Below, piece by piece: positions 16,570-19,708 of a DNA stretch of 64,000 nt (position 1 is its first letter; each line of letters opens with the position of its first letter). A program made the position numbers and the translations under genes. The stretch is from Planctomycetota bacterium (GTDB taxonomy: Bacteria > Planctomycetota > Planctomycetia > Gemmatales > Gemmataceae): NCBI GenBank assembly GCA_021807595.1, contig JAKBCS010000004.1, positions 17,041 through 81,040 of the forward strand. Direction: 5' to 3'. The notes below the pieces were generated by a model, which saw only the letters and a list, made by a program, of their open reading frames with translations, was not told where the DNA came from and ran no database searches.

Positions 16570-16649
16570 GCTTCATTGCCTCTTCTTGCCGCCTGCGATG
16601 GGGCGAAACGTCTTCGCTCTCATTGTAGGCGCGCAAGGGAAGCTCCGAG

Positions 16650-16670
16650 GTTAGCCGCGACGCGGAGCGA
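16650..16670. repeat. Half copy of the AGCCGCGACGCG repeat
   Basis: GTTAGCCGCGACGCGGAGCGA matches one arm of the REP-like family, with no complementary arm next to it. It lies between the DUF1559 and UbiD genes. Confidence 0.6.
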
Positions 16671-16697
16671 GGGACCGAGTTCTTTTTGGACGCGAAC

Positions 16698-17441
16698 TCA
16701 GTTATCGTAGAACAACGGCAGGTTCAGATCGCTCTGCGTGATGGCGGCAGAGTGGCCGTCGCAATAGAGGACGTTGAACACGTTGATGTGGCGTCGCTGC
16801 GGATAGTGGATGGCATCGGTGGGATCGTTGAAGGGGAGCCAGGGACCGCGTGGGGCGGCGATAACGGAATTGGCGCAGCCGGGTGTCTTGCCGTGATCCC
16901 AGACGATCAGGATGTTCGAGCTGCCGTTGCCCTGGACGAGATGGATGAGCGGCTGACCGTTGGGACCGCCGGTGACGTAGTTCATGCCATAACTGATTTG
17001 ATAGAGCTTGCCGGTCGCCGGATCGAAACCGTTGGGACACTGAAAGACTTTTTTGTTTCCTTCGACGAACGGCCACAACAAAGCGCGCGTGGGGTTGAAG
17101 TCGGGGAGGGGAGTATCTTCCGGGGACACGCGGTTGTCGTAGGGTGCCCACCAGACTTCGTTCGGTCCCGTGAAATGGATCGGCGAAGTGAGTTGGTCGC
17201 AGTATATGTCGTTACCCCCCTGCCACGGCGCGGGACAGAGGCGATAGCGCGGCAGGACGCCGAGCGTATCATTGTACATATGCGTGGCAATGCCGATCTG
17301 ATGCAGATTGTTGGCACACTGGATACGATTGGCCGTCTCTCGAACGCGCTGCACGGCCGGCAACAGCAGTCCGATTAGCACGGCGATGATGGCAATGACG
17401 ACCAAGAGTTCGATGAGCGTGAAGGCGGATCGCCGTCGCAT
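16698..17441 (-). CDS. DUF1559 pseudopilin-like protein
   Basis: The 247-aa product begins [31 protein letters not shown], a type IV pilin/pseudopilin leader cut before Phe, with the +5 Glu. After the N-terminal helix comes [17 protein letters not shown], the hallmark of planctomycete DUF1559 proteins, and near the end [17 protein letters not shown], close to the usual NVLFxDGxV motif. The track ORF runs much further upstream, but that part overlaps the opposite gene and is not real; the start is placed at 17441. It is divergent from the ModE-ModA fusion gene with 51 bases between the starts. Three DUF1559 genes are present in this window. Confidence 0.88.
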
Positions 17442-17492
17442 GGGTTGAATCCTTGCCGTGGGGAAGCGTTCTGGTGTGCGAGGAAGCGAACG

Positions 17493-18545
17493 ATGAACGA
17501 AGAAGCGCGAGAGTGGATGCGCGATTGGACGGTCGGCACGCGCCTGTGGCTGGAACGCTCCGGCGAGGCCATTCTGGGACCGGGGCGGTTGGAATTGCTC
17601 GAAGCGATCGACCGCTGCCACAGCATCAGCGCCGCAGCCCGCCAGTTGGGCATGTCGTATCGCCGCGCTTGGCTGCTGGTCGATAGCGTGAACCGGGCCG
17701 CGGGGTGTGAATTGGTTCGCCGACAAACCGGAGGGCGCGAGGGCGGCGGCGCGGCATTGACGGAGCGCGGGCGGCTCACCATCGACGTGTACCGCGAACT
17801 GCAAACGCGCGTCCGCCAGAGTGCCGGCTCGACCGCTTTGCTTCCACCTGTCGCGCGCGATCGCGCGGTCCACCTGGCCGTGGCCGCGAGTTTGGTCAAC
17901 GTGCTGGATTGTCTCCTCGCCGATTTCGCCATCGAGCAGCCCGGTCTGTCGGTGCGCACGCTCTGCGGGGCTTCCGACGAATTGGCCGATCAGATACTTC
18001 ATGGAGTTCACGTCGATCTATTCCTCAGTGCCGCGAAAGAACCGCTCGACCGCTTGGAGGCGGCGGGGCTTTTGGCTCCACCGAGTCGAACGGCATTCGG
18101 AGTCAACCGCCTCTCCGCCATCGTGGCGTCCTCCGATCTACTCGGTCGACGCGATCCTCAATCGTTGTTGCAAGCCGGAGTCCGGCACGTCGCGCTTGCC
18201 GATCCCTCTTGCCCTTTGGGACGCTACACCCGCTCCTATCTGGAGTCACTCGATCTTTGGGAGGCGATTCGACCCCGCGCGGTGTTTCTCGATAATCCGC
18301 GAGTCGTTCTCGCCGCCGTCGAATCGGCCAGGGCGGAGGTCGGAGTGGTTTATCGCAGCGATGTCCACGCTTCCCGCTCCTGCCACATCCTCTTTAGCAC
18401 GCGCCCCGAACGCCCTGCCATTCACTACACCGCGGCCTTGACACAGCGGGGCGAACATTCCGAAGCCGCCCGCTCCCTGCTTGCCTTCCTGACCTCGCCC
18501 GCCGCGCGGAAGCGACTTCCGAGCTTTGGACTCCTGAAACCGTGA
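17493..18545 (+). CDS. ModE-ModA fusion: winged-helix regulator with molybdate-binding-like domain
   Basis: The 350-aa protein joins two domains. Residues about 5-100 match the ModE DNA-binding domain ([40 protein letters not shown], then TERG). Residues about 115-350 resemble a ModA periplasmic oxyanion-binding protein ([69 protein letters not shown]), but with no signal peptide, so it acts in the cytoplasm as a sensor. It probably senses molybdate or a similar oxyanion directly. The start follows GAGGAAGCGAACG; the track start 16 codons earlier lacks a ribosome site. No modABC transporter genes are adjacent. A ModE-like box lies 38 bases past the stop. Confidence 0.82.
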
Positions 18546-18582
18546 ACGATTGTGAAACACCCTCTCGTCCCATTGTCGCCTT

Positions 18583-18606
18583 CGTTATATTCATCCGGAT
18601 ATAGCG
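18583..18606. promoter_or_regulatory. ModE-like operator
   Basis: CGTTATAT, eight spacer bases TCATCCGG, then ATATAGCG form a near-perfect inverted repeat. The known ModE site at Escherichia coli modA, as I recall it, has the same plan: CGTTATAT, eight bases, ACATAACG. It follows a gene for a ModE-domain protein, which strengthens the call. Which promoter it controls is not clear: it could act on the small exported protein gene downstream or on an unseen short transcript. Confidence 0.65.
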
Positions 18607-18790
18607 GGACAAGAATCCGAGGCCTTTTGTCGCCTCCCGATGGAAAACGATGTACGAAATCGCAACGGTTCGCTCGAAATGCGGCGGTCGAGATAGCTCA
18701 AGAGGGGATGGAAGGCCGGATAAAGCTCAATTTGTCTGAGCGGCATTGCGTTTGCAGTTATCTTACCTTGTGAAGATCGCCCGGTAAGTG

Positions 18791-18841
18791 TCTGTTCCAG
18801 AAGTTCCCTCTCCCCCTGTACTCGGGGGCTTCGGGAACAGA
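18791..18841. terminator. Compound hairpin in a leader, terminator or regulatory stem
   Basis: Outer arms TCTGTTCC and GGAACAGA pair, and inside them CCCCC pairs with GGGGG around TGTACTC. There is no U-run after it, so a classic terminator is uncertain. It ends about 30 bases before the start of the small exported protein gene, so it may shape that leader. The inner part resembles the CCCCTGTACTCAGGGG hairpins at 35501 and 63951. Confidence 0.45.
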
Positions 18842-18871
18842 CTCTAACTCGATTACCTTGGGAGGTAGATC

Positions 18872-19213
18872 ATGCGTTCGATGTTGCTTTCGTTGATGTT
18901 GGGGCTGGGCACGATCGGCCTGTTCGCGGCGACGCCGACACAAGGACATGCGGAGGAACGGTATGGCCGAGGGTACGGACGAGGGTTCGAGCGCGGTTAT
19001 GCCAATCGCGGCTTCTATCGCCGCGATTGGGACGATCGCCGCTACTTCAATCGCGGCTACTACGGCGGCAATCCCTATGGCGGGTTGGGCGTTCGCAATC
19101 TGTACGCTCCGGGCGTTTACGGCGGTGCCTATGCCCCCTATACGCCGTGGAACGGCGGCTACGGTCTGACACCTTATCCCAATTACTATTACACGCCTGG
19201 ATTTATCCGCTAA
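18872..19213 (+). CDS. Small exported Gly/Tyr/Arg-rich protein
   Basis: The 113-aa product has a signal peptide (MLLSLMLGLGTIGLFAATPTQGHA) and a low-complexity mature part rich in Arg, Gly and Tyr (RYGRGYGRGFERGYANRGFYRR, then Tyr/Pro-rich). The ribosome site GGGAGGTAGATC is strong. Proteins of this composition are frequent in Gemmata-like genomes; the function is not known. It lies downstream of a ModE-like box and a hairpin. Confidence 0.7.
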   Translation: MRSMLLSLMLGLGTIGLFAATPTQGHAEERYGRGYGRGFERGYANRGFYRRDWDDRRYFNRGYYGGNPYGGLGVRNLYAPGVYGGAYAPYTPWNGGYGLTPYPNYYYTPGFIR

Positions 19214-19243
19214 GACTTGTGCCGAACCGACCCTACCGCGAAC

Positions 19244-19708
19244 TCACGAGCGAGGTTCTTCCTCGCTCGTTTTCTTTTTTCCTTCCCCACCATCTCCGAA
19301 TGGGTTCGGATTGGCATCGAACCGTTCGAGATCGCGATCCGTCCAGCCGAAGTGATGCGCCAATTCGTGAACGACGGTTTTACGAATCTCGATCAGCAGC
19401 TGTTTTCGATTCGGAAAGGCATCTTCGAGCGGACGTTTATAAATCACCAGGCGATGGGGCATGGCATACACATCCACGGCGTCGCCGCTGAGAGGGGTCG
19501 GCAGAACCAGCGGATCGAACAGCCCCAGCAAGGTCTCCCCCTCGGCGATTTCCTCGGCCGTGAAGCCGACGCGGCGAAGCGTTTTCTCGTCCGGCTCTTC
19601 ATCCACCTCGACCGTCAGATTGTCGAGGTGGGGCAAGAACTCTGGCGGAAGCGAGTACATCACCCCGGCCACGATCCGGCCAAACTGACGGAGGGAGAGA
19701 CGTTTCAT
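19244..19708 (-). CDS. Zincin-type metallopeptidase family protein
   Basis: The 154-aa product contains VVHELAHHFG near residue 118, the HExxH zinc-binding motif, followed by WTDRDLERF. The layout (SLPPEFLPHLDNLTVEVDEEPDE, then LPDPLxLF-like and VVIYKRPL-like blocks) fits the small PF06262 metallopeptidase family, whose substrate is unknown to me. The track ORF starts at 19831, but that would overlap moxR and add 41 residues without family likeness; the ATG at 19708 is chosen although its ribosome site is poor. It converges with the small exported protein gene and is divergent from moxR. Confidence 0.8.
   Translation of the reverse strand: MKRLSLRQFGRIVAGVMYSLPPEFLPHLDNLTVEVDEEPDEKTLRRVGFTAEEIAEGETLLGLFDPLVLPTPLSGDAVDVYAMPHRLVIYKRPLEDAFPNRKQLLIEIRKTVVHELAHHFGWTDRDLERFDANPNPFGDGGEGKKKTSEEEPRS

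Follow-up and report, generated by a model that had tools for sequence, protein, structure and literature searches.

A putative ModE-type operator next to a ModE-ModA fusion gene in Gemmataceae and its occurrence before DUF1559 pseudopilin genes in related genomes

The window, which is the whole stretch of 64,000 nucleotides that was analysed, carries a gene for a ModE-ModA fusion regulator, a palindrome (the box) behind it, and a gene for a small, apparently exported protein. The features of this locus are as follows.

16698..17441, minus strand: gene for a DUF1559/SBP_bac_10 pseudopilin (WWAPYDNR subtype), transcribed divergently to the fusion gene (Pfam; orthologs have a box in other genera)
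17493..18545, plus strand: gene for the ModE(HTH)-ModA fusion regulator, 350 aa, without Mop/TOBE (Pfam, NCBIfam, and PDB matches)
17574..17825, plus strand: ModE-type winged-helix DNA-binding domain, residues 28-111 (TIGR00637)
17871..18530, plus strand: ModA-like substrate-binding domain, residues 127-346 (Pfam, PDB, and ligand-residue comparison)
18583..18606, no strand: putative ModE-type operator CGTTATAT-TCATCCGG-ATATAGCG with the core CGYTAT-N12-ATARCG (window match, conservation in relatives, and E. coli modA layout)
18784..18848, no strand: imperfect inverted repeat of ~60 bp in the spacer that separates the box from the small gene; the relative G003 lacks it
18872..19213, plus strand: gene for a small, putatively exported Arg/Gly/Tyr-rich protein, 113 aa (ORF; ortholog 3' of the box in G000, G001, G002, and G003)

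The fusion protein matches HTH_1 and SBP_bac_11 in Pfam. The NCBIfam matches are TIGR00637 (ModE_repress, 78 bits, which is under the curated cut-off of 98.5) and TIGR01256 (modA, 105.5 bits, cut-off 62.5). Residues 25-111 match the PDB structures 2ijl and 1b9m (1.1e-16 for 2ijl) and residues ~115-348 match ModA structures. The winged helix of full-length ModE is recognised by TIGR00637 below its cut-off and by 2ijl, and is homologous to the N-terminal winged helix of E. coli ModE. The C-terminal domain belongs to the ModA/SBP_bac_11 family. E. coli-type ModE consists of an HTH domain and two Mop domains. In contrast, no TOBE match was found in the fusion protein with Pfam or NCBIfam, and a ModA-like domain replaces Mop/TOBE in the fusions. 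The protein does not resemble an exported ModA with ModBC partners, as the ModA part lies behind the HTH domain with no preceding signal sequence and modABC is located elsewhere in the genome. The fusion would act as a cytoplasmic sensor in which the ModA-like domain takes the place of the usual Mop domains. Its ModE domain is the only TIGR00637 match in the window genome (G000), and a 93% identical fusion protein is present in Planctomycetota bacterium isolate BP6.bin110. The AlphaFold models of the fusion and of the DUF1559 protein (mean pLDDT 48 and 52) were too poor for structure search.

The ligand residues were compared with those of E. coli ModA, which are Ser12, Ser39, Ala125, Val152, and Tyr170. 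The side-chain ligands Ser12, Ser39, and Tyr170 are kept in the ModA-like domain, while Val152 is replaced by Pro and Ala125 by Leu. In E. coli ModA, Val152 contacts molybdate through its backbone amide, and a Pro at this position means that the ligand may not be molybdate. The ligand is thus probably, not certainly, molybdate.

The box is the 24-mer CGTTATATTCATCCGGATATAGCG, that is CGTTATAT-N8-ATATAGCG, and starts 37 bp 3' of the stop codon of the fusion gene. It was compared with the modA operator of E. coli K-12 from NC_000913, CGTTATATTGTCGCCTACATAACG, which lies 19 bp before the modA start and is the sole CGYTAT-N12-ATARCG match in the 7-kb E. coli mod region. Both sites share this 24-bp layout, although the inner arms differ from those of E. 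coli in most relatives (TTCCC...GG). The first-pass annotation had described the box as a site with the E. coli modA operator layout just after a ModE-ModA fusion gene, and both parts of that description hold. The published ModE consensus is ATCGNTATATA-N6-TATATANCGAT (PMC545781).

The full 24-mer is expected 0.08 times per shuffled window at up to 3 mismatches, and a scan of the whole window at that threshold found no second site. The 5.67-Mb draft genome contains a single full-length copy, and the remaining matches carry 3 mismatches. The bare 10-base core has two exact matches in the genome, where about one is expected by chance. The second of these, CGCTATTCCCTCTCGCCCATAACG at G000:C161:22620 (L069 5621-5644), was rejected as it fails the refined pattern given below and occurs at about chance level. 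CGCTATTCCCTCTCGCCCATAACG sits 12 bp before the putative start codon of a gene for a small protein with a BON domain, and the core match is also retained in G003 (G003:C97:4062, L160).

The occurrence of the box was then surveyed in a family sample of 95 genomes, mostly drafts, where genes were called with a simple script based on ORFs and codon usage. In 16 of these genomes (ModE+), a ModE domain stands out from the LysR background. The box starts 4-150 bp past the modE stop codon in 14 of the 16, with 13 exact matches and one (G063) with one mismatch. The exceptions are G088, where the box lies elsewhere, and G081, which has a diverged ModE outside the clade. The fusions are found in the four genomes of the window's genus (G000-G003) and in G025, and every one of these orthologous fusion genes has the palindrome beside it, as expected from the first-pass annotation. 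A refined pattern, CGYTATNNYNNNNNNRNNATARCG, consists of the core and two inner positions. It matches 14/16 ModE+ genomes versus 3/79 genomes without ModE (ModE-), with a Fisher p of ~4e-12. This value is flattering, given the relatedness of the genomes and the use of the ModE+ sites themselves to refine the pattern. As a yardstick, the control pattern that was read backwards matched 8/95 genomes. The operator thus occurs together with the ModE protein in the same genome. A good box, CGTTATATTGATACGGATATAACG, was also observed at G020:C493:14744 (L164), in a draft genome where ModE was undetected, ~136 bp before a gene for an exported protein.

In the tree, the ModE domains of the family group together, with the fusions next to stand-alone domains. 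No recognisable sensor domain was found in the stand-alone relatives, which thus differ from E. coli ModE by having nothing recognisable instead of Mop/TOBE. The fusion may thus predate the stand-alone form, although tree support is moderate and some branches are long. The gene order modE, modA, and modB is found elsewhere in the phylum (G483, G199, and G337), which suggests an obvious source for the fusion.

The gene that follows the box differs from the modABC genes that follow the E. coli operator, as it encodes a pseudopilin or a small exported protein. A DUF1559 gene lies directly 3' of the box in 11 family genomes outside the window's genus. The same-strand gene after the box opens with a DUF1559/SBP_bac_10 pseudopilin-type motif in G004, G011, G013, G025, G063, G064, G066, and G073. 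In G088, G072, and G035, a DUF1559 gene that is remote from modE is preceded by a separate box, at 11-18 bp from its start codon; the box of G072 ends 12 bp before that start. Pfam confirmed the DUF1559 assignment for the G073 gene and the remote G088 gene. Across the family, the box ends ~5-36 bp before the DUF1559 start codon, which resembles the 19-bp spacing of E. coli modA. DUF1559 proteins are pilin-like planctomycete proteins of an expanded family that combine an N_methyl prepilin motif with SBP_bac_10, and Tuwongella immobilis has 91 proteins with both (PMC8567305, PMC2754498). Both domains are present in the pseudopilin that is the putative target in the relatives.

The WWAPYDNR subfamily provides a direct comparison. 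All full-length orthologs from ModE+ genomes outside the window's genus have a box 41-60 nt before the start (5/5), and with G072, whose box ends 12 bp before the start, 6/6 have a box, whereas none of the 17 orthologs of the same subfamily in ModE- genomes has one. No box was found upstream of the WWAPYDNR gene of G000-G003, which is divergent from the fusion gene. The WWAPYDNR subfamily is thus distinguished from planctomycete DUF1559 proteins at large by standing under a ModE-type operator. The DUF1559 genes behind modE (L066 in G011, L067 in G013, L102, L104, and L105) are of at least two subtypes, one with the WWAPYDNR motif and a longer one that lacks it. The family has therefore apparently switched its target subtype but kept the box.

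An additional box of G002 lies 20 bp before a gene for a MOT1 molybdate transporter (G002:C38, L157; PF16983, 2.8e-44), again at a spacing like that of E. coli modA. No box was found at MOT1 of G001 or of ModE- genomes. A 2018 survey places MOT1 in eukaryotes only (PMC6147048). By sequence resemblance, a MOT1-type transporter also adjoins modE in G148 (L217, G148:C70).

The first-pass annotation had looked to an enrichment of the box near molybdenum genes in the window genome, and this was not borne out. No box was found upstream of modABC (G000:C149), and a genome-wide regulon that includes modABC was rejected for this genome, which has one full box and none at modABC. MOT1 of G002 is the one case of a box before a molybdate transport gene. 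Placement before molybdate transport or molybdoenzyme genes is common in known ModE regulons and is not strictly defining. The lack of enrichment does not sink the idea, because the sites of the relatives serve DUF1559 genes, probably the small exported gene in the window's genus, and once MOT1.

The product of the downstream gene had been described in the first-pass annotation as small, exported, and rich in Arg, Gly, and Tyr, which agrees with the 113-aa ORF. Its N-terminus resembles a signal peptide, and the protein has no Pfam or NCBIfam match. The box is followed by this small Tyr/Gly-rich gene in 4/4 genomes of the genus at a distance of roughly 95-265 bp (265 bp in the window). In the four-way alignment of G000-G003, where the rest of the intergenic region has diverged, no block is better conserved than the box. 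As it always follows the box, the small gene is the best candidate for the target of the operator in the window genome, and we consider this assignment probable. In the window, no sigma-70-like promoter was recognised in the stretch from the box to the small gene, and this counts against the assignment, as does the distance. An Rfam search of 16600-19400 gave no match at E <= 1, so that a riboswitch between the box and the preceding fusion gene was rejected. The inverted repeat at 18784-18848 is extra in G000 compared with the 93% identical relative G003, and is possibly a small mobile element.

Four other explanations of the box were considered. Firstly, the box could be a genuine ModE-bound element that acts on modE itself, through a roadblock or other 3'-end control or through an antisense promoter. 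Its closeness to the modE stop codon in 14 genomes would fit this explanation, and so would G072, where the box behind modE has no DUF1559 gene after it, and G035, where only remnants follow. However, boxes also precede DUF1559 genes that are remote from modE (G088, G035, and G072) and the MOT1 gene, and modE of G088 has no box at all. The closeness to the modE 3' end is accounted for by the gene that comes next, which is a DUF1559 gene or the small exported gene in 12 of the 14 genomes. Self-regulation is therefore unlikely.

Secondly, the box of the window's genus could be a relic that now regulates nothing, having served a DUF1559 gene downstream of modE before that gene moved to the divergent position. 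The WWAPYDNR gene of this genus is indeed divergent and without a box, and G035 offers a parallel, with a box behind modE that is followed only by fragments of the start and the C-terminus of a DUF1559-like gene. A relic is nevertheless hard to reconcile with a box that is strongly conserved in four genomes, amid surroundings that have largely diverged, and that always has the small exported gene next to it. We consider this explanation improbable.

Thirdly, the palindrome could be an intrinsic terminator or an RNA hairpin of the modE transcript, as the window box folds as RNA at -11.5 kcal/mol (z -2.8) and the boxes of G002 and G073 also fold. This was rejected, since neither a U-tract nor a terminator was detected on the plus strand, and the folds of the G064 and G004 boxes are no more stable than those of shuffled sequences (z -0.2 and -0.6). 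Moreover, conservation falls on the ModE half-sites, and elsewhere this box stands before start codons, so that a hairpin is very improbable. Lastly, a chance palindrome has a negligible probability: two exact matches to a core that is expected about once per genome would allow it, but the low expectation for the full-length match and above all the conservation at an equivalent position in 14 genomes refute it.

The palindrome can thus be regarded with high confidence as a real ModE-type operator, with binding predicted from the comparison of sequences. The fusion protein is very likely to be the regulator that reads it. We give a probability of roughly 80% to the overall reading of a functional ModE-type operator that is bound by the adjacent fusion as a one-component sensor of an oxyanion, probably molybdate. 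The target is most likely a gene for a surface protein and not modABC. The first-pass annotation had suggested a one-component molybdate sensor that acts locally, perhaps on a new target, and the comparison of genomes supports this, with a ligand set that is only partly conserved. In the proposed mechanism, the oxyanion-loaded fusion would bind the box. In the relatives, the molybdenum-loaded regulator would repress the DUF1559 gene, and molybdenum shortage would release the surface protein. Repression under molybdenum sufficiency is suggested by the position of the box close before the start codon, as in E. coli modA. That molybdate is the signal and that the regulator represses are predictions, and the second of them is made for the relatives.

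It is tentatively proposed, as a rather speculative extension, that the ModE-linked DUF1559/SBP_bac_10 pseudopilins are surface proteins induced by molybdenum starvation that capture molybdate or bind molybdate chelates. This would represent pilin-based metal acquisition under a ModE-ModA sensor, and the small Tyr/Gly-rich protein might serve a similar purpose in the genus of the window. DUF1559 is a heavily expanded planctomycete family of unassigned function; the conserved operator before one of its subfamilies provides a link to molybdenum status, and the role of this subfamily becomes directly testable through the operator link. No earlier link of DUF1559 proteins to a metal regulator, no ModE-regulated pilin, and no ModE-ModA fusion were found in the literature searched.

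The closest known counterparts of the stand-alone relatives are the stand-alone ModE DNA-binding domains of Desulfovibrio, whose sites CGGTCACG-N14-CGTGACCG lie before mod operons (PMC545781). They are Mop-less HTH proteins like the planctomycete family members. However, the planctomycete family retains the E. coli-type site and has a new target. The fusion of ModE with a solute-binding domain, together with the stand-alone relatives that have no recognisable sensor domain, bears on how molybdate is sensed by a Mop-less ModE. Elsewhere in the phylum, the core is found ~100 bp before the ModE domain match. In the distant family f50 (phylum relatives L109-L137), the box resembles CGTTATGTC-N6-GAYATAACG and lies ~95 bp before the ModE domain match, and a second copy frequently lies 500-1300 bp 3' of modE.
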